Of a DNA stretch of 64,000 nucleotides, positions 9,032-23,508 are shown piece by piece; position 1 is the stretch's first letter; each line of letters begins with the position of its first letter. The notes below the pieces were generated by a model. The model was not told where the DNA came from, did no database searches, and worked only from the letters and a program-made list of their open reading frames with translations. A program made the translations under genes and the position numbers. Origin of the DNA: Chloroflexota bacterium (GTDB taxonomy: Bacteria; Chloroflexota; UBA11872). The stretch is from NCBI GenBank assembly GCA_026706485.1, contig JAPOYR010000013.1, positions 248,001 through 312,000 on the forward strand, in the 5' to 3' direction.

Positions 9032-9925
9032 CTATAGGTCTCCCGCCGGCGGCATGCCGAGGTTAAGGCATTCCCACCCATCCCGGCGCAAGACGCTCTC
9101 GACACGCAATCCATGGTCGGCCGCCGCCGCCCGCATCTCGGCGCCTCTGGTCGCCGTGATGCCCCCCAGAATCACGCGGCCGTCGCGGCGCACGGCGGCG
9201 CGGTAGTGGTCGAGACTGCGCAGGTGCGTATCCGCCACGATGTTGGCCACCAAGATATCGGCGGGATCGGATTCGCGGAGCGGCAGCCGTCCGTGCGTCA
9301 CCGACACCCGATCGTCACAAGCGTTCTGCGCCACGTTCGCCCGCGCCGTCCGCACCGCATCCGCGTCGGTGTCAACGGCGCGCACGCGCCGCGCGCCGCG
9401 CAGCGCCGCAACGATGGCCAGGACGCCCGAGCCCGTGCCGACGTCGATGACGTCGTGCCCGGGGGCAATCGCTCCCTCCAGGGCCTCCACCGCGAGTTGC
9501 GTGGTCGGATGCAGCCCGGTGCCGAACGCCATGCCGGGATCGAGCCGAATCACTCGGCGGTCGCCGGCCGGCGCGTCCGTCCACGAAGGCGCGATCACGA
9601 AACTGCGTCCGATCGGGAATGGGCGGTAGAACGCGCGCCATTCGTTCAAGTATTCCTCGGGCCGCACCCACCGGATTTGCGGCGTGCGCAGGGTCGAGGC
9701 GCCGGTGGCGCCCAGGTGCCACAGCGCGCGCTCGATCGCCTCACGCGTCGATTGGCATGCCGGACCGTCGGCGATGTACGCCCGCAGGGTCATCTGCTCC
9801 TGCGCGTCATCCGGCGACTGCTCGACCGCCAGCGCCGATCCGACCCAGCGGGAAAGCTCCATGCGCACGTCGTCGGCGTCGGCGGGATCGGTATGAACCG
9901 TGATCTCGAGCCAGCGCTGGCTCAC
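9032..9925 (-). CDS. prmA: Ribosomal protein L11 methyltransferase
   Basis: SAM-dependent methyltransferase that trimethylates ribosomal protein L11, 297 residues, normal for the family. An N-terminal ferredoxin-like substrate-recognition domain covers about the first 100 residues. The Rossmann-type domain shows [14 protein letters not shown], the SAM-binding [14 protein letters not shown] and the ANIVADTHL motif that replaces the usual catalytic tetrapeptide in PrmA. The GTG start at 9925 overlaps the dnaJ stop codon (GTGA), so translation is probably coupled. An in-frame extension upstream lies inside dnaJ and was rejected. The dnaJ-prmA pairing is common in Gram-positive bacteria and relatives. 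Confidence 0.93.
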
Positions 9926-11028
9926 CGAAATGCGGCGCGTGCCTTCTCGACGAAGCTTCGGCCGTCGGCGTCGCGACCGGCGGGCAGCGAGTCTCGCAGC
10001 TGTTCCAACACCGCCCGCTGGTCCGACGACAGCTTCTTGGGAACCACCACCTTGACCGTGATGCGCTGATCGCCCCGCCCCGACCCGCGATATCGAGGCA
10101 CGCCGCGACCGCGCAGCTTGAGCACCGTGCCGGGTTGTGTCCCCCCAGGCACCGTCACGGTTTCCTCGCCGTCGACGGTCGGAACCTCCACCGTGGTCCC
10201 AAGGGCGGCTTCGGCGATGTTGAGCGCGAGATCGCTCACGATGTCGTCGCCCTCGCGCTCGAGCTGCGGATGGGGCTCCACCTCGATGGCCACGTAGAGA
10301 TCTCCGGGAGTGCCGCGATTGCGCCCGTGATCGCCGGCGCCCGAGAGACGCAATTCGGTACCAGGCGCCAACCCCGCGGGAATCTCGATTTCCCGGCTCA
10401 TGGCCCGGCGTTCCAGCCCGGTGCCGCGGCATCCGGAGCACGGCTCCGTGATTTCGCGCCCCTCGCCGTGGCAGCGCGGGCAGGTCGCGACGTTCACGAA
10501 CTGTCCGAAGAGCGATTGTTGGGTCCGTTGCACCTGGCCCGCGCCTTGGCACATCCGGCAGGTTGACGGCTTGGTGCCCGGCTCGGCGCCATCGCCCCCA
10601 CAGGCGCCGCACGGCTCGTGACGCTGGTAGTCGACTACCTTCGTCGCGCCAAAGACCGATTCGATGAAGTCCATCGTCACGACGGCGCGGAGATCGGCCC
10701 CACGCTGCTCCGTTCGTCGGGCGCGCGTGGTGCCGCGCCCGAAGAACGCGTCGAAAATGTCGCCCACGCCGGCAAAGTCGTCGACGCCGGCCCCGAATCC
10801 GCCGCGCGCGTCGGCGTGTCCGAATCGGTCATACATCTGCCGCTTCTCCGCGTCGCGCAACACCTCGTAGGCCTCGTTGATCTGCTTGAACTTGGCGTCG
10901 GCGTCAGACGCCTTGCTGACGTCCGGGTGGTATTCCCGCGCCAGCTTGCGGAAGGCCCGGCGAATCTCGGCTTCGGAGGCGTTTCGACTCACCCCCAGCA
11001 CGTCGTAGTAGTCGGGCTTGCTGCTCAC
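9922..11028 (-). CDS. dnaJ: Chaperone protein DnaJ
   Basis: Co-chaperone that delivers unfolded clients to DnaK and stimulates its ATPase, 368 residues. The J domain has HPD at residues 34-36. A short Gly/Phe region is followed by the complete zinc-binding domain with four CxxCxGxG repeats ([32 protein letters not shown]) and the two C-terminal client-binding domains. The start is GTG at 11028, 20 nt after the grpE stop, with GGTGG upstream. No CIRCE-type operator is visible. dnaK and hrcA are not in this cluster, so the partner Hsp70 must be encoded elsewhere. Confidence 0.97.
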
Positions 11029-11048
11029 TGGCGCGCCACCGTTCGCCG

Positions 11049-11723
11049 TCAGCCCGCGCCGTCGCCGGCCGGCGTGGCGTCACCCGCGGCCGTCGTCTCC
11101 GGTTCCGACTCCAGGCTGGCCGCCGGCGCCGATTTGACGAGCGTCGGACGCAACACCCGATCCTGCATGCGGTAACCGCGCTGCAGCTGCTCGGCCACCA
11201 CCATCGGACCGTCGCCCTCGTCCGAAATCACCACCTCGTGAATCGCGGTGTCGATGGGGTCGCCGCGTTTGCACTCGATGGGCGTGACGCCGTGTGCCTC
11301 CAGCACGCCCAGCAGTTGAGCCTGGGTCAGCGCAATGCCGTCCACCCAGCTCAGCAACCGCAGCTCGCCCGGCAGCGTCTGGAACGCGCGTTCGAAGCCG
11401 TCGATCACCCGCAGGATGTCGAACGCGATCGCCATGTTGGCGAAAAGGGCGCGTTCCCGGGCGTCGGCCTCGGTGCGCCGCCGGTAGTTGGCGAAGTCGG
11501 CCTGCACCCGCGTGAGTCGATTGAGCACGTCCCGATGTCGCCGCTCGAGATCGGGCGCATCGTCGGCCGGCGTCTCGGACGAGCCGGATTCGGCCGGCGG
11601 CTGGTCCGCGGCGCCCGAGGCTGCCCGGCGATCGGTCACGCGAATGGTCGGACGATCGTCGTCGTCGACCCGCGGCGCCTGGTCGTCCGGCGTCTCCGAT
11701 TCACGAGGTTCGGCTTCGGTCAT
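11049..11723 (-). CDS. grpE: Nucleotide exchange factor GrpE
   Basis: Adenine nucleotide exchange factor for DnaK, 224 residues. The first 80 residues are acidic and probably disordered. A long coiled coil follows (about 85-125, including the family signature [12 protein letters not shown]). The C-terminal beta-wing domain ends with the typical [20 protein letters not shown] pattern (19 residues visible). The ATG at 11723 was preferred over an in-frame ATG 25 codons upstream because conserved sequence begins only later and GAGGAG lies before it. The last 25 residues are Ala/Gly/Glu-rich. First gene of grpE-dnaJ-prmA. Confidence 0.93.
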
Positions 11724-11873
11724 GCCTATCGGTTCTCCTCGGTGTTTTCCTGAGCCGTGGCCCTCGGGCCCCATGCCTTCGGCCCAGGCATTATCCATGC
11801 CCGCGAGTCGCAGAGTGGTGAATCACCGGTCCGCAGCCGAGCCGTGGAACTCGTCGACCGGGACCGCCGACCG

Positions 11874-14666
11874 CTATCCGCCGTCGCGTTGAATTCTGAC
11901 TTCGCCCGGCACGACCACAAAATCGGCCCGGCTCACGGCCTGGTCGCCGACGAGAACCTCCACGCTCCATTGCCCCGTGGCGGCGGTCGGCGGAAGGAAA
12001 AACCAAAAGCCATACGTCGCCCGCGGCGACGCTTGCACCGGATCGGTGAGGAAGCGGCCAATCTCACGATCACCCGCGTTCCAGCGAATCCCGAGGCGCG
12101 TGCCGTCGACGATGTTGGTGAATTCGATGGAAATGCTCACCCGCTCGCCGGGATGGAATTGAAGCGTTGGCTCAACCGCCCGTTGGGCCGAGTCGAGATC
12201 GAGCGCCAGCGTCACGGACTCGATGTTGGCCGACTCGTTCGTGGCCGGCTCAATCGTCGGCGTCGGAGTCGGCGTCTCCTCCTCGGCGGCCTCCGGCGTT
12301 GCTTCCGCCTCGCCGGTCGGCGATGGCGCGGGCTCCGTGGGCAGCGGCTGTCCGGGCGGGGCAATGCGCCACACGATGCCGCGTCCCTCGAGCAAGTAGA
12401 TGCTTCCGTCACTGGCGATCGCCATGTCGATGGCCGTGAACAGCGGAATCTCGGCAGCCGCCCCCCCCGGCTGTCCGGAGCCGGTCGGGTCGCCGGCGAT
12501 CACGCGCGCGGCCCCACCGCCAACGGCCGTCACCGTCCCCGCCCCGCTCTCGACCACGTAGAACCCACCGGCCGCGTCGGCCGCAAGCCCGATGGGCGCC
12601 TCGATTCGGACCGACCCCGCCGGTCCCTCGTCGGGCGCGCTGGTATCCGACGAGCCTGCGGCGAGCTCGATGGTCCCGTCGCGGCGCAAGCGGCGCACCA
12701 CGCCCGCTTGCAGTTGGGAGATCAGCACCTCGCCGCCGGCGTCGACCACGGCGCGCTGTGGAAAACCGACCGCGGCCTCCGCCGCCGGGCCCCCGTCGCC
12801 GCCCCAGCCGAAGTTGCCGGTGCCGGCAATCGTGACGATCGTTCCATCGCGTTCCACGCGGCGCACCCGATGGTCCGGCGCATCGACCACGTACAGCCGG
12901 CCCGCCGAATCCAATGTCACGCCAACCGGCTCGGTGAGCGACGCGAAGGCCGCCGGGCCGCCGTCGCCGCCCGAGCCCGGAGCGCTGACGCCGACCATCG
13001 TGCCGATCACGCCTTCGGGCGTAACCCGCCGCACGCGGAAATTCCCGGCGTCGGCAATGTAGAGCGCGCCCTGCGCATCGACGGTTACATGGTGCGGGCG
13101 GTTCAATTGCGCCGCCGTCGCCAGGCCACCGTCGCCCGAGAATCCCGGGCTTCCGTTCCCCGCCACGGTCCGCACGGTGCCGTCAAGCTCAATGCGTCGA
13201 ATGCGGTGGTTGCCGGTGTCGGCCACGAGCACGCGCCCGGCGCTGTCCACGGCAATGCCGCGAGGCGTGGTGAACTGGGCATCCTCCCGCGAGCCGCCCT
13301 CGCCGTCATAGCCCGGCTCGCCGCGGCCGGCGAACACCTCGGCAATCAGCTCCGCGGCCACCGGCGGCGGCAGCGCCAGGGACGGCGCCGGCGGTTGATA
13401 TGGCGGGGCCGCCGGCGCTTCGGGCTCGGCGGGAATCTGCGCAATGGGAACCAGCGCCCGCAGCCGACGCGTGCCCTGTTCGACCACGAGCAGCTCACCG
13501 CGCGTGGTCACCGTCACGTCGGCCGGCAGCTCCAACCTGGTATCAACGGCCAAACGGCCGGATGCCGACGGTTGTTCAATGTCACCGGCAATCGTGGTGA
13601 TGCCGCCGCTGGGGTCAATGCGACGGACGCGCCGGTTGTTCCAATCCGCGACAAACACGTTGCCATCGGTATCCACGGCCACGGCTTGAGGCCCGTGAAG
13701 CTGGGCGCTCACCGCCGAGCCACCGTCGCCCCCCATCCCCGGCTCTCCGGTCCCGGCGAGCGTGTGGATGGCCGCGACGCTGCTCTGACCGGATACGCGA
13801 CGAATCCGGTTCCCGCCAAGCTCGGCAATCAGGATGTTGGCAAACGCGTCGACGTCCACGTCGACAGGCTGATTCAACTGCGCGTTCGCGGCGGCGCCAC
13901 CGTCCCCCGCACTGCCGGCGATGCCGGTGCCCGCCATGGTCGTCACGATGCCGTCCGGGCCGATGCGGCGCACCCGGTGCGCGGCGCGTTCGGCAATGAA
14001 CAGCGTGCCCTCCCCGTCCAGCGCCATGCCGGCGTTGCCCGCCAGTCGGGCCAGGCTGGCCGGTCCTCCATCGCCTTCGAGCCCCGGCTGCCCATCGCCA
14101 ATGACCGTGGTAATCGTGCCGTCGATCGCCACCCGGCGCACTCGGTGCAACTCCGCGATCAGCAGCACCCCGGCGCCGTCGACCAGCAGCCGGGTCGGCT
14201 CAGTGAGCTCGGCCTGTGTCGCCGGACCACCGTCGCCCGCGGACCCGCGAATGCCCGTGCCCGCCACCGTCTGAATCACGCCGTCGGCGCCGATGCGCCG
14301 CACGCGATTCGCCTGGGGGTCCGAGATGTAGACCCTCCCTTGAGGATCCACCGTCACGCCGCCGATGCTTCGAAACTGCGCCAGCGCAGCCGGCTGTCCA
14401 TCGCCGGCGTCACCGAACTCCCCGCTGCCGGCGAGATCAATGACCACCAGCGGGAGTTGCACGGCCGGCGGCAGGCTCGACACGGCGAGCGGGAGATAGG
14501 GCGTCGCAACCGGCGGGTCGGTCCGCTCCGGCGCCGCGGGCGGCGCCGGAGCTTGGCCATCGCCAAACCCGCCGAAATCGCATCCCGTTGCCGCAATGGC
14601 GGCCACGGCCCCCACGAGCATCTGCCGTCGTGTCAACCGGCGCCTTCGCTGGGTTCTACGCCACAT
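11874..14666 (-). CDS. Double NHL-repeat beta-propeller lipoprotein
   Basis: Predicted exported protein of 930 residues and unknown function. The N-terminus has a twin-arginine-like LTRRQMLVG, a hydrophobic stretch and a Cys at residue 29 (ATGC), suggesting a Tat-exported lipoprotein. Two runs of NHL blades follow. Each blade carries the hallmark GDGGPA, a VDxxG turn and a final RVRR...TVAGTG pattern. A Pro/Ala-rich linker near residues 395-420 separates the two propellers. A Thr/Pro-rich linker near 750-790 leads to a C-terminal beta-sandwich-like domain. It is the last gene of the polysaccharide operon, overlapping the sugar transferase by 11 nt, so coupled expression is likely. A role in binding or organising the exported polysaccharide is a guess from context. 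Confidence 0.8.
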   Translation of the reverse strand: MWRRTQRRRRLTRRQMLVGAVAAIAATGCDFGGFGDGQAPAPPAAPERTDPPVATPYLPLAVSSLPPAVQLPLVVIDLAGSGEFGDAGDGQPAALAQFRSIGGVTVDPQGRVYISDPQANRVRRIGADGVIQTVAGTGIRGSAGDGGPATQAELTEPTRLLVDGAGVLLIAELHRVRRVAIDGTITTVIGDGQPGLEGDGGPASLARLAGNAGMALDGEGTLFIAERAAHRVRRIGPDGIVTTMAGTGIAGSAGDGGAAANAQLNQPVDVDVDAFANILIAELGGNRIRRVSGQSSVAAIHTLAGTGEPGMGGDGGSAVSAQLHGPQAVAVDTDGNVFVADWNNRRVRRIDPSGGITTIAGDIEQPSASGRLAVDTRLELPADVTVTTRGELLVVEQGTRRLRALVPIAQIPAEPEAPAAPPYQPPAPSLALPPPVAAELIAEVFAGRGEPGYDGEGGSREDAQFTTPRGIAVDSAGRVLVADTGNHRIRRIELDGTVRTVAGNGSPGFSGDGGLATAAQLNRPHHVTVDAQGALYIADAGNFRVRRVTPEGVIGTMVGVSAPGSGGDGGPAAFASLTEPVGVTLDSAGRLYVVDAPDHRVRRVERDGTIVTIAGTGNFGWGGDGGPAAEAAVGFPQRAVVDAGGEVLISQLQAGVVRRLRRDGTIELAAGSSDTSAPDEGPAGSVRIEAPIGLAADAAGGFYVVESGAGTVTAVGGGAARVIAGDPTGSGQPGGAAAEIPLFTAIDMAIASDGSIYLLEGRGIVWRIAPPGQPLPTEPAPSPTGEAEATPEAAEEETPTPTPTIEPATNESANIESVTLALDLDSAQRAVEPTLQFHPGERVSISIEFTNIVDGTRLGIRWNAGDREIGRFLTDPVQASPRATYGFWFFLPPTAATGQWSVEVLVGDQAVSRADFVVVPGEVRIQRDGG

Positions 14667-16065
14667 CGCCCCGCATCACGATTCGCAGCGTCCGCATCAG
14701 GATTCTGAGATCGAACAGCAAGGACCAGTTTTCCACGTAGTACAGGTCATAGCGCGTGCGCTCGTCGATTGACGAATTGCCCCGCAATCCATTGACCTGT
14801 GCCCAGCCGGTCATCCCGGCGCGCTCACGGTGACGGACCATATAGCGAGAATACTCGCGCTCGAACTGGCGCACGTAGGAAGTCCGTTCGGGCCGCGGGC
14901 CCACCAGGCTCATATCCCCGCGAATCACATTGATCAACTGCGGCAGTTCATCGATCCAGTAGCGCCGGAGCAGGCGACCAACGCGAGTGATTCGCGGATC
15001 GTTGGCAATGGTCCATGTCTGGCCGCTGAGCTCCGCGTTCCGGTGCATCGTCCGAAACTTGATGATCGGAAAACGCCGCTGATCGCGACCCACGCGCTGC
15101 TGGATGTAGAACACGGGCCCGGCCGAGTCCACGCGGATAGCCATCGCGACCAGCAGCATCGGAAGCGACAAGACGACCATTCCGAACATGGCGCCCGCGA
15201 GATCCAGCGAGCGCTTGGTGAAGCGGCTCAGCCCCTGGAGCCGAACGTCGTTGACGGCCATCAGCGGCAGCCCGCGAATTCCGCCCGCTGTCACCGGCGA
15301 CACCATGAGCTGGAACAGGTCCGGCAGCAGCCACACGTCCGTGAACGACGCTTCGGTCTGTTCGAGAATCCCGAGCAGCGCGTCGTGCGAGAGCGACGGG
15401 ATTGCCACCACGACCTTGTCGACCTGGTGCTCGCTCAGCACGCCCGCCAGCGAGTCCACGCGTCCCAGCACCGGCACTTGCTGGCCGCGGGCGGTCACCG
15501 AAGTGGCAAAGTCGTCCACAAAGCCGACCACTCGGAATCGCCGCGTGCGCTCGTCGAACAGCCGCGCGAGCACCTCGGTCCCCTCGGTGCCGGCCCCGAC
15601 CACGATGACGCGCGTGACCCCGATTCCGAAGCGATTCAGCGCCTGGCGCACTCCGACGAGCAGTGACCGTCCGACAACCACCAGCACGATGCCGGACAGC
15701 CACATGTACGCCACGAGCAGGCGCACGAATTCGAGCCGGTCCTGAATCACGAAAAACGTCGCGGCCACCGTGAGCAGCGCGCCGACGGTGACGGCCCCGG
15801 CAGATCGCACCACCCGATCCAGCGGGCCCGCCGTGCGATGCCGCGTATACAGGCCGAGGGCGAGCCCGGCCAGGACGCTCGCAACCGTGAAGGTGAGGTT
15901 GACCGGCACGAAGAAGAGAAACCGGTTCGACGCCACCTCGGGTCCCCACCCCAACCGGAATCGCACCACGTACGCGACGGCGGTCGCCGCCAGCAACGCG
16001 GCAACGTCCAAGGCCACCGTTCCCGTGGCCTCGAGTCCCTGCCAGTTGCGTCGAACCCAGGTCAA
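14656..16065 (-). CDS. Polyprenyl-phosphate sugar-1-phosphate transferase (WcaJ/EpsE-like)
   Basis: Initiating enzyme of exopolysaccharide synthesis. It transfers a sugar-1-phosphate from a nucleotide sugar to undecaprenyl phosphate at the inner membrane. 469 residues, usual for the long form: about four N-terminal membrane segments (to residue 125), a Rossmann-like CoA-binding domain (VIVVGAGTEGTEVLARL, near 145-260), a fifth hydrophobic segment, and the catalytic bacterial sugar transferase domain. That domain shows KFRTM, DELPQLINVIRGDMSLVGPR and RERAGMTGWAQVNG. It starts with TTG in a TTGA overlap with the preceding glycosyltransferase. The sugar is not predictable; glucose or galactose are the most common. 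Confidence 0.92.
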   Translation of the reverse strand: MTWVRRNWQGLEATGTVALDVAALLAATAVAYVVRFRLGWGPEVASNRFLFFVPVNLTFTVASVLAGLALGLYTRHRTAGPLDRVVRSAGAVTVGALLTVAATFFVIQDRLEFVRLLVAYMWLSGIVLVVVGRSLLVGVRQALNRFGIGVTRVIVVGAGTEGTEVLARLFDERTRRFRVVGFVDDFATSVTARGQQVPVLGRVDSLAGVLSEHQVDKVVVAIPSLSHDALLGILEQTEASFTDVWLLPDLFQLMVSPVTAGGIRGLPLMAVNDVRLQGLSRFTKRSLDLAGAMFGMVVLSLPMLLVAMAIRVDSAGPVFYIQQRVGRDQRRFPIIKFRTMHRNAELSGQTWTIANDPRITRVGRLLRRYWIDELPQLINVIRGDMSLVGPRPERTSYVRQFEREYSRYMVRHRERAGMTGWAQVNGLRGNSSIDERTRYDLYYVENWSLLFDLRILMRTLRIVMRGDVA

Positions 16066-16952
16066 CCTACGGCCCCCTTGCGACGACCCAGCGCCAACAC
16101 CCGGAGCGCGCCCTGGCGGGCAACGGCGCCAAGCGCCAGGACGACGATCGCGGTGGTGACGACCGTCCGTAGCCAGAGGCCGTCACGCTGCCGGTGCTTC
16201 CGATAGTAAAGCCAAATGGCCCGATAGAATTCCACCCGCGCACGGATGGCGCGCTGCCGCGTCGACTGCCGCTTGAGGTGCCGCACCACGACCGAGGGCA
16301 CAAAGAGGGTCGGCCAGCCGGCCTGTCGGATGCGATAGGCCAAGTCGAGGTCTTCGCCGTAGGTGAAAAACTGCGGATCGAAGCCGCCGACCCGACGAAA
16401 GGCCTCGGCGCGCACCAGCATGCACGCGCCGGAGACCGCGTCCACCGTCGCCTCGCATCCGGTGGACGGGGCAATGTTGTAGGGCCGCACACCTCTGGGC
16501 GGCAGGCTGCGGGGCCAGCGAAGCAGGCGCATTGCCGCGGAGGCGGGGGTCGGAAATGTGCGGCACGCCGCCGGATCCAACGTTCCATCGGCCAGCTCGA
16601 GCCGCGGCCCCAGGATGCCCAACGCGGGATCGGCATCGCCGCGCTCCACCAGGCGCCGCAGCGCGAGCGGCGTGAGCTCCGTATCGGGATTGAGGAACAG
16701 CAGCCAGCGTCCCCGTGCCCGCGAGGCGGCGAGATTGTTGCCCCGGCCGAACCCCAGCTCGCGGCTGCCTCGAATCGCCTGCACGTCCGCCCGGGACACG
16801 ATGCTGTCCCAGGTGCCGTCGCCGGAACCGTTGTCCACCACCAAGACTTCCGTCGACAGTCCATCGGTCGATTCCGGAATGGTCGCCAGGCATCGCTGCA
16901 GGAGCTCGGGCACGTTGTACGTGACGATGATGATCGAGACATCCATGGTCAT
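16062..16952 (-). CDS. Glycosyltransferase family 2 (rhamnosyltransferase-like)
   Basis: GT-A fold transferase of 296 residues acting on the cytoplasmic side on the growing lipid-linked repeat unit. It begins with the family start VSIIIVTYNVPELLQRCL. The nucleotide-binding VVDNGSGDG is near residue 40, the DxD-type FLNPDTEL near 90 and the acceptor-site YGEDLDLAYRI near 205. The arrangement resembles dTDP-rhamnosyltransferases of the WbbL type, consistent with an RmlD-like gene in the same operon. The C-terminus has one hydrophobic segment that may anchor it to the membrane. It overlaps the next gene by 4 nt. Confidence 0.9.
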   Translation of the reverse strand: MTMDVSIIIVTYNVPELLQRCLATIPESTDGLSTEVLVVDNGSGDGTWDSIVSRADVQAIRGSRELGFGRGNNLAASRARGRWLLFLNPDTELTPLALRRLVERGDADPALGILGPRLELADGTLDPAACRTFPTPASAAMRLLRWPRSLPPRGVRPYNIAPSTGCEATVDAVSGACMLVRAEAFRRVGGFDPQFFTYGEDLDLAYRIRQAGWPTLFVPSVVVRHLKRQSTRQRAIRARVEFYRAIWLYYRKHRQRDGLWLRTVVTTAIVVLALGAVARQGALRVLALGRRKGAVG

Positions 16953-16956
16953 CGTC

Positions 16957-17883
16957 CTAGCCCCTCAGCCGACGCCAACAGCCCGCCGCATAGCCCAGCA
17001 TCTTGGCTGCGTCCCCGACCACCCGCACGAGCGGAACCAGTGCCGGCGCAGCCGCCCCGCCGCCGGGCGCCCCCCGCGCCCGAGCAATCGGGCGGCGCAG
17101 GTAGCGATAGCCCAGGAAGGCCAGAAGCGCAACACGGCCCCAGGATGGCCGCCGGGCCAGGGATAGACCCACGGCGTAGGCCGCGAAGCGCGCGGCATGG
17201 CGTTTCCCGAGCATTCCGGCCCGGCCATCGCCCGAGGCGTAGTGAAAATACTGGCGGAAGAAGGCTGGCAGGCTCGAACGCGGTCGATTCCACACGTCGG
17301 CGCCGGGAGCGTGGACGAACCAACCGCCCTCGGCCCAGATCCTCCGATCGAGCCATAGATCCTCGCCGTAGTCGAGCCATTCGGGAAAGCCGCCGACTTG
17401 ATCGAACCATTGCCGTCGCAGCAGCACCGACCCACCGCTCGGGGGATAGTGCGCCGGATCGATCTCGTCCGCGAAAGGAAGTCCAACCGCGCCAATGGCC
17501 GTCTCGACGGTGCTGCCGGGCGCGGCCAGGATGTAGCCAAACGTCCCGGCGGCGAGCGGCGCTTCCTCCGCGCCATCCACCAGCGCCCCAAGCCATTCCG
17601 GCGACCGGACGATTCCCGCATCGGTGAAGGCGATCAGGTCGGACGTCACCGAGCGCGCCGCCAGGTTTCGACCGGCGGCTATGTTGCTGCCAGGCGCTTC
17701 AATGACCTGGGCGCCCTTCGTGCCGGCCAGGGTTTCCCGCAGAATCTCGACGGTCCCGTCGCTCGATCCACCGTCGACGATGACAAGTTCGTCCGGCTGC
17801 CGGCGCTGCGACCGCAGACTCTCGGCCAATGCTTGGGCGTCGCGGGCCTCATTGAGAACCGTCGCGCACACGGCCACCGTCAT
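16957..17883 (-). CDS. Glycosyltransferase family 2
   Basis: Second GT2 enzyme of the operon, 308 residues. Visible motifs are the N-terminal VAVCATVLNEA, the nucleotide-binding IVDGGSSDGT near residue 45, the metal-site region AFTDAG near 95 and the late GEDLWLDRRI. The C-terminal third is Arg/Ala-rich with a hydrophobic stretch, suggesting peripheral membrane association. The ATG at 17883 overlaps the stop of the upstream GT4 gene (ATGA). A longer in-frame reading upstream lies inside that gene and was rejected. The donor and acceptor sugars are not predictable. Confidence 0.88.
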   Translation of the reverse strand: MTVAVCATVLNEARDAQALAESLRSQRRQPDELVIVDGGSSDGTVEILRETLAGTKGAQVIEAPGSNIAAGRNLAARSVTSDLIAFTDAGIVRSPEWLGALVDGAEEAPLAAGTFGYILAAPGSTVETAIGAVGLPFADEIDPAHYPPSGGSVLLRRQWFDQVGGFPEWLDYGEDLWLDRRIWAEGGWFVHAPGADVWNRPRSSLPAFFRQYFHYASGDGRAGMLGKRHAARFAAYAVGLSLARRPSWGRVALLAFLGYRYLRRPIARARGAPGGGAAAPALVPLVRVVGDAAKMLGYAAGCWRRLRG

Positions 17884-19088
17884 TCCCGCCCTCCATCGAG
17901 ACCCGAATCTCGCAGGCCGCCGTACACGTCCAGCAGTGCCCGGCCCGTTACCGCCGGCGCATGGTGCTCGGCGATGTAGGCATGGCCGCTCCGCCCCATC
18001 TCGCGCCGCCGCTCGTGGTCCTGCAGCAGATCGACGATGGCGTCGGCAAACGCCGTGGCCGAGTCCGCCGCGGCAATGCCGTTGAGCGACCCATCCAGCC
18101 CCGCAAGCCCCGAGGCTTGAACCACGACGGGGCGCGCCTGGGCGAGGGATTGCAGCACCTTCAGCGGCGCCCCCGACCCCACGGGCGCGGGCGATGTGCT
18201 CAGCCAAGCCGCCCGCTGCTCCCCCTCGAAGTCATCAACCAAACCGCCCACGCTGCACCGCGCCGGGGCAATCGCGCGCAGGCCCAGCGAGCCCGGACCC
18301 ACCACTCGCAGCTCGGCCTCCGGCACGCGTCGCAGCACCGCGGGCCACACCGTGCCAAACAGCCACTCGGCCCCAAGGATGTTGGGCCGGTAGGCGAAAT
18401 TGGCGGCCAGCAGCACGCGCGGCTGATCGGCTTCTTCATCGGTGCCGGGCAGGTCCGCCGGCGCCGGAACCGGATGTGGAATCGCCGCCACGGAGCGATT
18501 GCCGAGCGTCACCAGAGACGCGGCGTCGGCCGCCGACGAGGCGGTCACGGCGTCAGCCGCACCCACGACCCACCGTTCCACGCCGTACAGCAGCGCCGCC
18601 TGCCGCCGCGAGTGCCAGGCGCGTGCGCCCCGCGCGAGATTGGCGAGCTGGCTCTGCAGGCGCCACTCCACGTTGTGCGCGTCATAGACCACGGGCGGAC
18701 GTCGCCGCTCGCCTTCGGTGGAGGCAGCCACGTCGTGCACGATGTGCGCCAGCTGCAAGCCTTCCACCTGCACCGCCTCGACCCCGCCGGCGCTGAGTCG
18801 CTGCTGCACGGCGGCCCGAAGCTCCGGCGTGCGGTGGCGAAACACGAGATCCGGCGCCGGTCCTAGCGCGGCGTTGGCCAGTCGTCGCCACAACGGCGCC
18901 CGCCGCAGGCGGACGGCGGCTGTGCTGCGCGCATCCGGGTGCGGGCGCACGCGCTCACGCGCGCCGGCAAGAGTGATCACGTCAACGTCGTGCTGCTCGG
19001 CAAGCGCCGTGATGAACGCGCTGTTGCGCACCGCCGCGCCGTGCGTCGGCGGCCACGGGACCGACGGCGTGACGACGAGAACGCTCAC
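17880..19088 (-). CDS. Glycosyltransferase family 4 (GT-B fold)
   Basis: GT-B glycosyltransferase of 402 residues. The N-terminal acceptor domain begins VLVVTPSVPWPPTHGAAVR, a pattern shared with sugar transferases of exopolysaccharide clusters. The C-terminal donor domain contains VLLAANFAYRPNILGAEWL and the conserved stretch GSGAPLKVLQSLAQARPVV. In that stretch Gln stands where most GT4 enzymes have the second Glu of the E-x7-E motif. Whether this changes catalysis is unknown. It starts with GTG in a GTGA overlap with the preceding gene and overlaps the next by 4 nt. Confidence 0.85.
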   Translation of the reverse strand: MSVLVVTPSVPWPPTHGAAVRNSAFITALAEQHDVDVITLAGARERVRPHPDARSTAAVRLRRAPLWRRLANAALGPAPDLVFRHRTPELRAAVQQRLSAGGVEAVQVEGLQLAHIVHDVAASTEGERRRPPVVYDAHNVEWRLQSQLANLARGARAWHSRRQAALLYGVERWVVGAADAVTASSAADAASLVTLGNRSVAAIPHPVPAPADLPGTDEEADQPRVLLAANFAYRPNILGAEWLFGTVWPAVLRRVPEAELRVVGPGSLGLRAIAPARCSVGGLVDDFEGEQRAAWLSTSPAPVGSGAPLKVLQSLAQARPVVVQASGLAGLDGSLNGIAAADSATAFADAIVDLLQDHERRREMGRSGHAYIAEHHAPAVTGRALLDVYGGLRDSGLDGGRE

Positions 19089-20146
19089 GTGAGGCGGTCG
19101 TAGACGGTCAGGGTGGCCGCGGCGGCCCGCTCCCAGGAAAACTCGGCGGCCCGGTCGCGTCCGGCTGATCGCAGTTTCGCGCTCAGCGATGGATCGCCTG
19201 CGACTTTATCGATTGCGTCCGTCAGCGCCTCGGGATCTTGCGGGTCGACGTACAGCGCCGCCTGGGCCGCCACCTCCCGCAGGGCGCCAATGTCGGAGAC
19301 GACGCAGGGCGCCCCGGCTCGCATGGCCTCGAGCACCGGCAACCCAAACCCTTCGTCCAGCGATGGCTGCAGCACCAGGCTCGCATGCCGATACAGCCGT
19401 CCCAGCATCGCGTCCGACACCGAGCCGATGAACCGCACCCGTGCCTCGGGATCCAGCGTCCGTACGGTTCGCACGATATCGACGCCCTGGTAGCCGAGGC
19501 CGCCCGCAACCAACAGCGGCATGTCGCGCGCCGCCTTGGAGCGCACCCACGCGCGCGCCGCATGCACGTGGTTCTTGCGGGGTTGCAGCGTCCCCACCAT
19601 CAAGGCATAGCCGCTTCGGGGCGGCGTGGAATCGGCCGCCGCGTCCAGCGCCGTCGTCGGGGCCTCGTGAATCACGCTGATCCGGTCGCCCGGAACGAGC
19701 TTTCGGTCGGCGAGCTGGTCCCGGACGTGCGCGGACACGGCGATGACCTGTGACGCCCGCGAAAGCCGCTGGCTGGCGGCGCGGTAGAAGTCGAGGCTGC
19801 GCGGCTCGTATGCCGCCGGATGCGTCAGAAAGGACACGTCGTGCACCGTCACCACGCTGGGCGCCCGCACGCCGGGCGGCACGGCATGGTCGGGAAAATG
19901 CGCCGCGCCGAACGTCCGCAGGCCCCAGCCCAACGTCGCCCGTTCCAGGCGATGCCGCGCCGGCGTCGGCGCCGATCGGACGGGCAGCGCGGCGCCGCGG
20001 TGGCGCCGGTCGCGTGGGTCGAGCAGGAGCGTGACCTCGTGGCGGGAATCGCCCAACTCGGCCATCGCCTGCTGGAGTTCCCAGATATAGCGGCCGATCC
20101 CCGCGCGGTCGCGATACAGCATCCGGCCGTCGAGAGCGACACGCAC
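19085..20146 (-). CDS. Glycosyltransferase family 4 (mannosyl/rhamnosyl type)
   Basis: GT-B transferase of 353 residues with a well-preserved donor site: GTLQPRKNH, then the E-x7-E motif in DEGFGLPVLEAMRAG, then CVVSDIGALREVAAQAALYV. The N-terminal domain has the usual RVALDGRMLYRDRAGIGRYI start. This protein looks like the WbdA/WbpY group that transfers mannose or rhamnose. The start is a GTG 1 nt after the stop of the Wzy-like gene. An in-frame extension into that gene has low-complexity shadow sequence and was excluded. Confidence 0.9.
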   Translation of the reverse strand: MRVALDGRMLYRDRAGIGRYIWELQQAMAELGDSRHEVTLLLDPRDRRHRGAALPVRSAPTPARHRLERATLGWGLRTFGAAHFPDHAVPPGVRAPSVVTVHDVSFLTHPAAYEPRSLDFYRAASQRLSRASQVIAVSAHVRDQLADRKLVPGDRISVIHEAPTTALDAAADSTPPRSGYALMVGTLQPRKNHVHAARAWVRSKAARDMPLLVAGGLGYQGVDIVRTVRTLDPEARVRFIGSVSDAMLGRLYRHASLVLQPSLDEGFGLPVLEAMRAGAPCVVSDIGALREVAAQAALYVDPQDPEALTDAIDKVAGDPSLSAKLRSAGRDRAAEFSWERAAAATLTVYDRLT

Positions 20147-20147
20147 G

Positions 20148-21518
20148 TCAGGGGCTGCGCCGAGCGACCACCAGCGTGGCGCCGACAAGGACGCCGCCCA
20201 GCACGGCCAGGTGCTGGAAGCTCGCCAGGTGGTGATCGACCATGGAGGCCGCGAGCAGCGCCGCCAGCCCCGCCACGCACGCGCGCGCCATGGGATCGCG
20301 GCGAACGAAACGAGCGGCCCGCGCCACCGTGGCAACGACCACGCCCAGCGCGGCAGCCGCCGCGAGCACTCCGGCGCGCTCCGCGATCCACAGCCACGTA
20401 TTGGAGACTCCGACAAACACGTCCACGTCCGGCGAGGCGCCGTAACCCACGCCAAACCAGGGATAGCGCCCAATCACGTGGACTGCCTCCCGGAGCTCGC
20501 CCAGCCGCAGAGCGTCGGACAGGTCGCGCTGCACCACTGCCGCACGAATTGCCTCCCCCAATCCCCCCGACCACGGCACGATCAGACCAAGCGCACCGGC
20601 CAGCGCGAGCCCGGCGCCCAGTCGCGGGCGCGTGCTCGCGATGACGACGAGCGCCGCCACCGCCGCGCCCACCCAGGCGCCCCGCGACAGCGTGAGCACC
20701 AGCGCCGCCGCGATCAGGCCAATGGCCGTGGCCTGGAGCGCGAACCGACGCGCCGATCCGGTGCAACCAACCATCGCGAACGGCAGCGCCATGGCCAGCG
20801 TGACGCCCAGGACGTTCGGATCGACGAGCAGCCCCGTGGCGCGCGGCGTCACCTCGTCGGGCAGGAACCGCTGAATGTCGGATGCGGGATAGCCGGCCGG
20901 GGACAGCGCCTCCAGGAAGCGGATGCCGGCGTCGCCGGCCAGGTGCAGCACCACGGCCAGCGCGGCCTGGATCGCCGCGGCGCCCACGATCACGCGCTGC
21001 CCATGCCGGCGAATGACCGACCGCGGCAGCCACATCACCACCAGCAGGGGGGCCGCCGCGGCCATCGCCAGCTTCAGGCCCGTCTGCAGCGCCTCGAAGT
21101 CTCGGTTGACGGGCCAGGCAATCGCCGCGGCCAGGAGGATCAGCAGCAGGTAAAGACCCTGGACGATCAGGATGCGGTCGCGGGAGAGCGATCGGGCGCC
21201 TCGGATCACGGCCAGCGCCGAGACGCCGATCAGAAGGGCCACCAGCACCGCGATCACGGGCGGCTGGGCGCCCACGCGCACCGGCACGATCACGAACGGC
21301 GCCAGGATCGCCAAGGCCGTCAGTCCGCCCAGCCCGAGCGCGGGTCGCCGCAGGGCCGCCAGGGCCCCGACGACCAAGACCCCGCCGGCAATCGCGGCGG
21401 CCGGCGGCAAGCGCGCGGCCATCCACCCGGCAAGCACGGCGGCCAGCGCAACCGTCGTCGCCACCGCCCATCGCGCCGACGCTCGTCGCGCAGCCGCTTC
21501 TAGTCCAGCAGCGACCAC
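20148..21518 (-). CDS. O-antigen polymerase/ligase-like membrane protein (Wzy/WaaL type)
   Basis: Polytopic inner-membrane protein of about 456 residues with roughly 11-12 hydrophobic segments. The large periplasmic loop between late helices contains the conserved type of sequence found in the O-antigen ligase family (RLGELREAVHVIGRYPWFG, followed by GVSNTWLWIAERAG). It would polymerise or ligate the lipid-linked repeat units made by the neighbouring glycosyltransferases. The exact start is uncertain. GTG at 21518 gives a 19-nt overlap with the preceding gene, which fits the rest of the operon; later starts near the first membrane helix are possible. No Wzx flippase is present in the window. 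Confidence 0.82.
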   Translation of the reverse strand: MVAAGLEAAARRASARWAVATTVALAAVLAGWMAARLPPAAAIAGGVLVVGALAALRRPALGLGGLTALAILAPFVIVPVRVGAQPPVIAVLVALLIGVSALAVIRGARSLSRDRILIVQGLYLLLILLAAAIAWPVNRDFEALQTGLKLAMAAAAPLLVVMWLPRSVIRRHGQRVIVGAAAIQAALAVVLHLAGDAGIRFLEALSPAGYPASDIQRFLPDEVTPRATGLLVDPNVLGVTLAMALPFAMVGCTGSARRFALQATAIGLIAAALVLTLSRGAWVGAAVAALVVIASTRPRLGAGLALAGALGLIVPWSGGLGEAIRAAVVQRDLSDALRLGELREAVHVIGRYPWFGVGYGASPDVDVFVGVSNTWLWIAERAGVLAAAAALGVVVATVARAARFVRRDPMARACVAGLAALLAASMVDHHLASFQHLAVLGGVLVGATLVVARRSP

Positions 21519-22447
21519 ACGTATGCCTCGCTGACCGTCCGGGTTCGCTGGCGACGTCGGCGCTTGCGCAAGGCGCGGCCCAGTTGCGGGATCGCCGCCA
21601 GCTGGCCGTTCAGGGTTGCCCGCGCCGCGCGCCCCTGAAAGTTGCGCAGCGCATCGAGCGCGATCTGACCCTGGGCCCGCAGGATGGACCACCACCGGCG
21701 GCGCAGCACGTATCCCGGAACATTCATCGCCGCGACCAGCGGTCGGTTTCGCCCGACCAGAAAACTTTCAAATTCGCTCGTGGCGCTCGCGCCGCGACGG
21801 TGCCGTACACGCGCCGTCGGGACGTAGCGGCACCGGTGGCCGGCAAGCTGAGCCCGCCAGCTCAGGTCCACGTCCTCGCAGTACATCATCAGGTCTTCAT
21901 CCAGCCCGCCAACCGCGTCGAACAGCGTCTTCCGGTAGGCCGAGGCGGCGGCGCACGCGCCAAACACCTCGCACGGCTCGTCGAATTCCGCGCCGTCCCG
22001 CTGCCACACGCCGCGATTGCCCGGCAACCCGCTGGCGGTGAAGAAATCTCCGGCGGCGTGCAACCGGTCCGGCGTCGCGTAGAGCAGAATCCGTGAGGCC
22101 AACATGCTGGCGTTGGGATGCTCGTCAAAGGCTCGATCCAACTCGCCCAGCCACTCGGGCTCGGGCACGGCGTCGTTGTTGAGAAACGCGATGCGCTCGG
22201 CGCGGGCAACGGCCAGTCCTTGGTTGATCGCGTGCGCCAGGCCGCGTCGCTGGGCAAGCTCGACGGAAACCACGTCGGGTTGGTGCTGCCGCAGCCAGTG
22301 GCACGTGTCGTCGTCGGAGTCGTCGTCGACCACGATGGTCTCGAAGTCGTGCAGCGTTTGCCGGCTCAGCCCGTCCAGCGCCTCGGCCAGGAGGTGCCGG
22401 CCGTTCCACGTCGGGATCACCACGCTCCAGCGCGGCGCGTCAGCCAC
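21500..22447 (-). CDS. Glycosyltransferase family 2
   Basis: Third GT2 enzyme, 315 residues. Motifs are WSVVIPTWNGRHLL at the N-terminus, IVVDDDSDDDT near residue 40, FLNNDAVPEPEWL near 95 and the late MYCEDVDLSWRAQLAG. The C-terminal 60 residues are very Arg-rich and may bind the membrane surface. The start is GTG at 22447, overlapping the RmlD-like gene by 8 nt. Sequence upstream in the same frame is a shadow of that gene. Confidence 0.9.
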   Translation of the reverse strand: MADAPRWSVVIPTWNGRHLLAEALDGLSRQTLHDFETIVVDDDSDDDTCHWLRQHQPDVVSVELAQRRGLAHAINQGLAVARAERIAFLNNDAVPEPEWLGELDRAFDEHPNASMLASRILLYATPDRLHAAGDFFTASGLPGNRGVWQRDGAEFDEPCEVFGACAAASAYRKTLFDAVGGLDEDLMMYCEDVDLSWRAQLAGHRCRYVPTARVRHRRGASATSEFESFLVGRNRPLVAAMNVPGYVLRRRWWSILRAQGQIALDALRNFQGRAARATLNGQLAAIPQLGRALRKRRRRQRTRTVSEAYVWSLLD

Positions 22448-23303
22448 GATCGGCCACCCACTGCCGCACGAACTCCTCGAGGGCCTCGTGCCAGGGCCGC
22501 AGCGTGATACCCACCGCTCGCGCCATCTCGTTCGCCAGCTCGCTATTCGCCGGTACACGCGCTTCGCGTTGGAAGTCCCCGGCCGAGATTTCTTCCAGCT
22601 CCACGTCGTCGCGTCCGGCGGCTCGCAGCACCGCGGTCGCCCAGCCATACCAACTGGTCGCGCCCTCGTTGACGAGGTGGTGCACCCCGTACGCCTGCGT
22701 ATCGATGAGCCGAACAATGGCCGCCGCCAGGTCGCCCGCAAACGTTGGGTTGGCAACCTGGTCGCCCACGTAGCGCACGTCGGATGCGTCGTCGGCCAAG
22801 TCAAGCAACCGGGCCACGAAGCCTCGGGTCCACCGGCTGTACACCCATCCCGAGCGCACGACATAGAGGCGGTCCAAGGCCTGTCGGGCGGCGCGTTCGC
22901 CGCCAAGCTTGCTCACGCCGTAGGCGTTGATCGGGCCGGGCTCGTCGTATTCCCGGTACGGTCCCAGCTTGTCGCCGGCGAAGACGTAGCTGGTGCTCAG
23001 ATAGACCATCTCCGCACCGGCGCGGGCAACCGCGCGCGCGACGTTCCAGGCGCCCACGACATTCACTCGCTGCGCGGCGCCCCGGTCGCGCTCACAGGCC
23101 TCGGGATCGGTCATCGCCGCGGCATGAATCACCACGTCGGGCTTGATCTCGCCCAGCGCGCGGTCCATGGCCGCTCCGCTGGTCACGTCCAGGGCGCTGC
23201 GTCCCAGCGCCGACACGTTGGCCTCGTCGAGTTGCCGCGCAAGCTCGATGCCGATCTGGCCGCCGCCGCCGGTGATGAGGATGCGCGGCGGACGGCTAGC
23301 CAT
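22440..23303 (-). CDS. rmlD: dTDP-4-dehydrorhamnose reductase (RmlD-like)
   Basis: Short-chain/extended dehydrogenase of 287 residues that would reduce dTDP-4-keto-rhamnose to dTDP-L-rhamnose with NAD(P)H. The Rossmann motif ILITGGGGQIGIELARQL is at the N-terminus. The catalytic pattern has STSYVFAGD, then Y-x3-K in INAYGVSKLGGE. The C-terminal substrate domain contains VGDQVANPTFAGDLA. The ATG at 23303 overlaps the preceding small gene by 8 nt. The other rml genes (A, B, C) are not in this window, so either they are elsewhere or the enzyme acts on another nucleotide-4-keto-sugar. Confidence 0.85.
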   Translation of the reverse strand: MASRPPRILITGGGGQIGIELARQLDEANVSALGRSALDVTSGAAMDRALGEIKPDVVIHAAAMTDPEACERDRGAAQRVNVVGAWNVARAVARAGAEMVYLSTSYVFAGDKLGPYREYDEPGPINAYGVSKLGGERAARQALDRLYVVRSGWVYSRWTRGFVARLLDLADDASDVRYVGDQVANPTFAGDLAAAIVRLIDTQAYGVHHLVNEGATSWYGWATAVLRAAGRDDVELEEISAGDFQREARVPANSELANEMARAVGITLRPWHEALEEFVRQWVADRG

Positions 23304-23508
23304 CGAACTCGGGATCGTCACTCCGGCTGAACGTGAGCGCCACGCTGAGTCCCGCAATGGCAATCGCCACGGCGCTCAGGCCGATGTATTGCCAAACGTC
23401 AAGCTCGCGACCCAGGGACACGACGAGAATCAATACGACGAAGACGGCGGACATTGCGGCCCAGGCTGCAAGGCGCGGATGCCGCGACGCCTGACGTAGA
23501 AGCTTCAT
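23296..23508 (-). CDS. Small two-helix membrane protein
   Basis: Probable first gene of the polysaccharide operon, 70 residues from the ATG at 23508. An alternative ATG at 23544 would give 82. Two hydrophobic segments (about residues 17-32 and 40-58) flank a short polar turn containing GRELDVWQYIG, and the C-terminus is acidic (SRSDDPEFDG). No family is recognised. It overlaps the RmlD-like gene by 8 nt, which supports it being translated. It could be a small regulatory or scaffold subunit, but no function can be assigned. Divergent from miaB. Confidence 0.6.
   Translation of the reverse strand: MKLLRQASRHPRLAAWAAMSAVFVVLILVVSLGRELDVWQYIGLSAVAIAIAGLSVALTFSRSDDPEFDG

Follow-up and report, generated by a model that had tools for sequence, protein, structure and literature searches.

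A 64,000-nucleotide stretch of a Chloroflexota genome (hereafter the window: positions 248,001 to 312,000 of contig JAPOYR010000013.1, assembly GCA_026706485.1) harbors, on the minus strand, a gene for a lipoprotein-like protein with two NHL propellers (the NHL protein), overlapping the end of the gene for an initiating sugar transferase of a polysaccharide cluster. The reading tentatively favored here, at a confidence slightly short of even, is that of an order-specific scaffold or binding lipoprotein of the cell envelope, expressed together with the polysaccharide by translational coupling and not confined to the polysaccharide. The protein would be exported folded by the twin-arginine translocation (Tat) system and lipid-anchored through Cys29 at the outer face of the cytoplasmic membrane, where the two propellers, having no catalytic function, could act as discs on which protein or glycan ligands of the envelope dock. 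Ribosomes finishing the transferase would start the NHL protein via the overlap; hence, its amount would follow cell-surface polysaccharide synthesis.

The gene runs from 14666 down to 11874 and encodes 930 amino acids (aa) plus the stop codon; an earlier note on this DNA had proposed the same reading frame, naming no strand. The 11-nucleotide (nt) overlap with the transferase, likewise proposed there, lies exactly at 14656–14666, and the overlapping partner, a polyprenyl glycosylphosphotransferase, passes the cut-off of the WcaJ family (TIGR03023, 418.3 bits against 410.75) as well as that of TIGR03025 (426 bits against 295.55). Within genus g1, five comparisons gave ratios of nonsynonymous to synonymous substitution rates (dN/dS) of 0.083–0.118 for the NHL gene, with changes piling up at the third codon positions, close to the 0.077–0.090 of the transferase (also five comparisons).

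In the sample of the order to which the bacterium belongs (24 genomes), the NHL gene was found in 23: in 22 at E ≤ 1e-40 and in G023 in fragmentary form, at the edge of a contig and with hrcA and grpE behind it. The sole genome without a match, G016, is 76% complete and has no grpE match either. A transferase ortholog (E ≤ 1e-80) is present in 20 of the 24 genomes, and the NHL gene is the next gene in every one of the 20; as for the other four, G016 is incomplete, the transferase is cut by the contig end in G007, the locus of G023 is cut, and G019 lacks the cluster. The ATG of the NHL gene stands at exactly −11 from the transferase stop in all 17 measurable genomes of family f1; between genera g1 and g2 the NHL protein is about 56% identical, yet the overlap is unchanged. 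The identity of the overlap in 17 of 17 genomes together with the dN/dS of about 0.1 indicates a genuine gene under constraint, whose translation is probably coupled to that of the transferase. Thus, the conservation of the gene pair, which the earlier note had wished to see checked, is confirmed, and the orthologs do not reside mostly away from polysaccharide genes, a finding that would have spoken against its proposal.

Downstream of the NHL gene, grpE (after 75 nt) and dnaJ follow on the same strand, and then a HIT gene and rpoB. Hence, the description of the NHL gene as the last gene of an operon holds with respect to the polysaccharide genes and does not hold with respect to the strand as a whole. 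The heat-shock pair follows the NHL gene in 21 of the 22 in-order loci (the remaining locus is truncated by a contig end); rpoB is less fixed (18/22; it is missing in L051 and L056 though the contig continues).

Outside the order, 37 genomes were sampled, 29 of which possess a transferase match at 1e-60; the loci of 20 of the 29 were read over stretches of 4.8–19.5 kb, the first 12 having been picked for a nearby grpE. Relatives of four cluster glycosyltransferases (GT1b, GT1a, GT2b and GT2a) and of the transferase occur together in 13 of the 20 loci, and at least GT2b, GT2a and the transferase in 17; an NHL match at 1e-4 was obtained in none of the 20 stretches read. The next recognized gene after the transferase is hrcA in 13 loci (L076–L088), comprising 11 of the 14 loci from other orders of the class and 2 of the 6 from the rest of the phylum. 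In L090–L092, it is an enolase-superfamily-like gene (named by reading), and the other four loci also lack hrcA at this place. An operator resembling the controlling inverted repeat of chaperone expression (CIRCE), with 0–2 mismatches to what we take to be the CIRCE motif, sits between the transferase and hrcA in 11 of the 13 hrcA-bearing loci, so the polysaccharide and heat-shock operons look separate there.

Within the order, hrcA follows the NHL gene in G006, G020 and G023, and no hrcA was detected in the remaining 21 genomes; the three HrcA proteins score about 90–93 bits with PF01628 vs. 115–188 bits for the other unbroken matches. With up to 3 mismatches allowed, neither the 22 in-order loci nor the window yielded a CIRCE-like site; the HrcA/CIRCE control of the heat-shock operon appears to have been lost in most of the order. 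Since 13 of the 20 outside loci, all devoid of an NHL match, have hrcA as the next recognized gene after the transferase and 23 of the 24 order genomes have the NHL gene, the latter was probably inserted between the polysaccharide and heat-shock operons in the ancestor of the order, judging from the gene order in the extant genomes. In the simplest history, the CIRCE site disappeared after the insertion, and most lineages subsequently lost hrcA. The neighborhood itself seems old: the polysaccharide cluster abuts hrcA-grpE-dnaJ in 13 of the 20 outside loci, including two from elsewhere in the phylum, so other orders, and some genomes belonging to other classes, likewise keep heat-shock genes next to it. 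As to more distant NHL proteins, the flanks read at 14 loci from other orders and phyla (L040–L045, L068–L075) gave no BLAST match to the glycosyltransferases or the transferase of the cluster, a test which detects only relatives of these particular proteins.

The reverse situation is encountered in G019 (96% complete, about 20 contigs), where no cluster gene was detected between miaB and the NHL gene; downstream come grpE and dnaJ, as usual. The sole transferase match of this genome at 1e-60 is 35% identical and located on another contig, and a search of it with the GT2a protein retrieved nothing at 1e-15, whereas three cluster-bearing f2 genomes give 7.8e-65 to 2.1e-72. The NHL frame of G019 is open over 730 codons from the first start and retains the lipobox Cys. 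These genomes are most simply read as showing that G019 has lost its polysaccharide operon as a whole, because the relatives outside the order and the rest of f2 possess the cluster (G023, with its cut contig, was not judged). In the same locus (L063, contig C4 of G019, about 10700–11400), the NHL stop overlaps a possible GTG start of grpE by 4 nt.

These observations bear on the suggestion of the earlier note that the protein might bind, anchor or sense the exported polymer. A dedicated accessory of polysaccharide assembly, with propellers that bind the polymer outside the membrane, during or after its synthesis, and tether it or guide it to the surface, and with dosage set by the coupling, is possible though doubtful. 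The invariable adjacency to the transferase (20/20 genomes), the same 11-nt overlap in 17 of 17 f1 genomes, the similar purifying selection on both genes and a lipoprotein-like signal, which would put the protein where the polymer emerges, are all in line with such a role. However, no NHL match was found in the 20 outside transferase loci, the gene is kept without the cluster in G019, and the three measurable f2 genomes lack the ATG overlap (their first ATG comes at +25, +56 and +14; one genome has a GTG at −11). Moreover, grpE and dnaJ, functionally unrelated to the NHL gene, are kept beside it equally well, so adjacency alone proves little: it reflects kept gene order as well as a possible function. 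A dedicated component of a Wzx/Wzy system would be expected to co-occur with the cluster everywhere, and such co-occurrence fails on both sides, in the 20 outside loci and in G019. On the favored reading, the NHL protein would be dispensable for making the polymer, and this polymer would not be its only ligand, since relatives have the cluster without the NHL gene and G019 has the reverse. The suggestion of the earlier note is partly supported: the gene pair is conserved, and the role in handling the polymer is not established. In a related reading, which is also rather improbable, the twin-NHL lipoprotein serves a Wzy-type polysaccharide system as a lineage-specific accessory whose dosage is set by translation, and docks the emerging polymer or the assembly proteins of the polymer at the outer membrane face. 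If true, a polymer role would add NHL propellers to the parts handling exported polysaccharides. The case also shows clearly that function cannot be assigned from a conserved gene pair by itself, not even from one whose overlap is exact to the base.

Several points weigh against the favored reading of a general envelope scaffold. The preservation of the exact overlap across proteins of about 56% identity suggests that transferase-coupled dosage matters, favoring a polysaccharide role, and an overlap exact to the base goes beyond what conserved gene order would explain by itself. The case of G019 comes from one genome, of the completeness and fragmentation given above, in which another polysaccharide could be the ligand of the NHL protein. 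The lack of NHL matches outside the order pertains to short stretches (4.8–19.5 kb) from 20 of the 29 genomes, 12 of them picked by the proximity of grpE. Finally, the acidic residues of the blades presumably resemble the general NHL consensus and therefore point to no particular ligand.

The location of the NHL gene where relatives have CIRCE and hrcA invites another explanation, in which it belongs functionally to the grpE-dnaJ unit, having been inserted into the promoter region of the latter. The 4-nt overlap with the possible grpE start in G019 is compatible with it, as is the 75-nt gap to grpE, in which no terminator-like site is listed. Still, the overlap conserved in f1 is with the transferase, an exported lipoprotein has no evident role alongside the cytosolic GrpE-DnaJ pair, and none of the 22 in-order loci retains a CIRCE-like site; membership in the stress operon is thus very unlikely.

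The architecture of the protein is consistent with the scaffold reading. Its N-terminal segment features an arginine pair (RR) followed by a lipobox-like context around Cys29, which is the sole Cys of the protein and is kept in 21 of 21 aligned ortholog rows. The RR at residues 13–14 is present in 17/17 f1 rows and 0/4 f2 rows (with the starts as chosen). The N-terminus thus conforms by motif to that of a bacterial lipoprotein, with Ala in position −3, which is usually occupied by Leu. The Tat and lipobox assignments are motif readings; TatC is encoded in 24 and Lgt in 22 of the 24 order genomes. The lipoprotein of the earlier note is upheld as a predicted one.

The two NHL propellers announced in the earlier note were recovered both by Pfam and by alignment of an AlphaFold model to known structures with VIA-align. 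The best Pfam family is PF25021 TEN_NHL (182.2 bits, cut-off 27.1), and PF01436 NHL passes as well (125.5 bits, cut-off 20); SGL and SBBP, other propeller-type families, also exceed their cut-offs. Propeller 1 (residues 72–415) aligns with teneurin NHL propellers at Z of about 31–35, and propeller 2 (residues 437–770) with the NHL domain of a bacterial Teneurin-Like Protein (9ifo) at Z 41.2 (root-mean-square deviation 2.5, 39% identity over 335 residues) and with the designed Pizza6 at Z of about 32. With both regions matching solved NHL propellers at Z above 30, a six-bladed fold is indicated for each, and about 12 blades were counted by eye from the sequence repeats; the teneurin NHL domain is described as six-bladed in PMC13018210. 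The model, built from a 7-row alignment, has a mean predicted local distance difference test (pLDDT) score of 69.6 and a predicted template modeling score of 0.46: the modeled propellers are good locally, and their mutual arrangement is not reliable.

A catalytic propeller acting on envelope sugars, i.e., a lyase or lactonase like Vgb or SMP-30, is most improbable. The whole protein reaches 58.1 bits (cut-off 26.3) with SGL, the SMP-30/gluconolactonase region, with no single stretch passing, and 47.6 bits with Vgb_lyase, slightly below the cut-off of 50. TEN_NHL and NHL score far higher, VgbA of NCBIfam reaches 21 bits against a cut-off of 600, and most of the PDB matches listed, whether from the sequence or the fold comparison, are propellers of the NHL type or designed ones (e.g., teneurins, TRIM proteins, NHLRC2, SOQ1, Pizza).

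Propeller 2 is followed by a low-complexity linker (pLDDT under 50 for residues 771–834) and a C-terminal domain with eight predicted strands at 818–918, where ten-residue blocks have pLDDT of 36–76, with the first strand under 40. Structure prediction, which the earlier note had recommended, thus supported its propellers firmly and its C-terminal beta-sandwich with modest confidence, as a probable fold of the model. The domain is confined to f1, all four f2 rows stopping after propeller 2. No Pfam family exceeded its cut-off there; the candidate MG2 (E 0.076, 13.8 of 32.8 bits) was treated as a non-match. A stand-alone lipoprotein of 237 aa from the same genome (L003, 1234–1947) shares with the NHL protein a homologous domain at the C-terminus, 33% identical over 94 residues (E 5e-15 as the value for that single comparison) and preceded by a lipobox-like signal and a Thr/Pro linker; it differs in lacking propellers and in being sited elsewhere, between DHH-like and enolase-superfamily-like genes (named from translation). 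Because a related domain exists in this stand-alone form, fusion is a likely origin of this part of the NHL protein. In 21 of the 24 order genomes, open frames of 167–549 aa also match the query from about residues 767–805 to 920, partly within the low-complexity linker.

The group of bacteria concerned is poorly studied and includes sponge-associated members, and the source bacterium is related to sponge symbionts. It was considered whether a "eukaryotic-like" NHL surface protein might help sponge symbionts to contact or evade host cells, the operon providing co-expression only, which is decidedly unlikely. Four named near relatives, not counted as extra evidence of conservation, are metagenome-assembled genomes (MAGs) coded COS3, RHO3 and jk18x (two), where COS and RHO are presumably sponge codes. 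However, the sponge link rests on these four relatives, genomes of genus g2 and family f2 also carry the gene, and NHL proteins occur in bacteria not tied to hosts as well. The jk18x code is used for MAGs from Ircinia sponges and NHL appears among the domains enriched in Ircinia symbionts (PMC9531527), and NHL is named among eukaryotic-like families (PMC10947273).

Among known proteins, the bacterial Teneurin-Like Protein (9ifo, 9pt5; PMC13018210) is close in its NHL part, as judged from propeller 2 and the best Pfam family, and the same source describes Gram-negative representatives with predicted lipoprotein domains. Unlike the NHL protein, it combines one propeller with a length of 2144–2237 aa. 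Membership in the teneurins or Teneurin-Like Proteins, which combine a YD-shell with an NHL domain and an FN-plug, was rejected: none of the 8 Pfam families matched at 1e-3 is a YD/RHS family, and only the NHL part is common. ScyE and ScyF of the cyanobacterial scytonemin clusters are similar in that a gene for an NHL-type propeller belongs to a cluster responsible for an extracellular product, and ScyF is reported to be an adjuvant, not essential (PMC4870267). However, the cluster is of another type, no PEP-CTERM family occurs among the Pfam matches of the NHL protein, and the NCBIfam scores fall short of membership (86.7 of 350 and 57.3 of 80 bits). Lepto_SBBP_lipo (LipL53) likewise carries a beta-propeller on a lipoprotein anchor, but the NHL protein scores 16.7 bits vs. 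its cut-off of 400. A table in PMC10599522 lists, in a Geobacter stretch with phage-tail genes, the NHL repeat protein GSU0989 two loci from the glycosyltransferase GSU0991.

In the open-licence literature searched, no described role of an NHL protein in exopolysaccharide assembly was found, in agreement with the earlier note, nor was a WcaJ-type gene overlapped by the gene for a lipoprotein that carries two propellers of the TEN_NHL type. The parts are of known kinds. No relative of the NHL protein was confirmed in viral contigs; in PHROGs, one family of unknown function gave 20.9 bits, with no single stretch passing.

Table 1. Features of the NHL gene, its product and its surroundings in the window
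Feature	Coordinates	Strand	Basis
Twin NHL-propeller lipoprotein	11874..14666	-	Open reading frame (ORF) and translation, Pfam, orthologs, dN/dS
Signal segment, RR motif and lipobox-like Cys29 (residues 1-29)	14580..14666	-	Ortholog alignment, motif reading
NHL propeller 1, residues 72-415	13422..14453	-	AlphaFold model, VIA-align to NHL structures
NHL propeller 2, residues 437-770	12357..13358	-	AlphaFold model, VIA-align
Low-complexity Pro/Thr/Glu linker, residues 771-816	12219..12356	-	Sequence; pLDDT
C-terminal domain, probably beta-sandwich-like, residues 817-920	11907..12218	-	AlphaFold model; f1 orthologs only
Overlap of transferase stop and NHL ATG, 11 nt	14656..14666	-	Same -11 ATG in 17/17 measurable f1 genomes
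WcaJ-type undecaprenyl-phosphate sugar phosphotransferase, 469 aa	14656..16065	-	TIGR03023, TIGR03025
Glycosyltransferase family 2	16062..16952	-	Pfam
Glycosyltransferase family 2, with a possible true start near 17880	16957..18207	-	Pfam
Glycosyltransferase group 1	17880..19088	-	Pfam
Glycosyltransferase group 1, true start possibly about 20140	19085..20473	-	Pfam
Wzy_C / O-antigen ligase-like polymerase	20148..21695	-	PF04932 1.2e-11
Glycosyltransferase family 2, true start possibly about 22440	21500..22906	-	Pfam match at residues 161-330
RmlD-like dTDP-4-dehydrorhamnose reductase	22443..23363	-	PF04321 3.2e-80
grpE, heat-shock cochaperone, neighbor outside the proposed function	11049..11798	-	PF01025
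dnaJ, neighbor	9922..11028	-	Pfam

Several ORFs of the cluster as listed in Table 1 probably start too early, the real genes being shorter, as suggested by the reach of their ortholog alignments. In the ORF 16957–18207, the alignments outside the genus start at residues 52–109; in 19085–20473, those of genus g2 start at residues 71–112 (mostly 105–112), and in 21500–22906, mostly at residue 155. On the plus strand, an open frame of 983 aa (11757–14708) antisense to the NHL gene was dismissed as an artefact, probably a side effect of the high GC content: in the minus-strand NHL frame the substitutions fall mainly at codon position 3, e.g., 85, 56 and 332 at the three successive positions in the case of G001.

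Scans for regulatory signals between 9800 and 24000 yielded no sigma-70-like promoter (0.9 expected) and six terminator-like sites (6.6 expected); in a GC-rich genome with uncharted promoters, promoter, terminator and CIRCE scans say little. The grpE of the window is outscored by a second grpE-like gene of the same genome (G000 C13:143764-144219).

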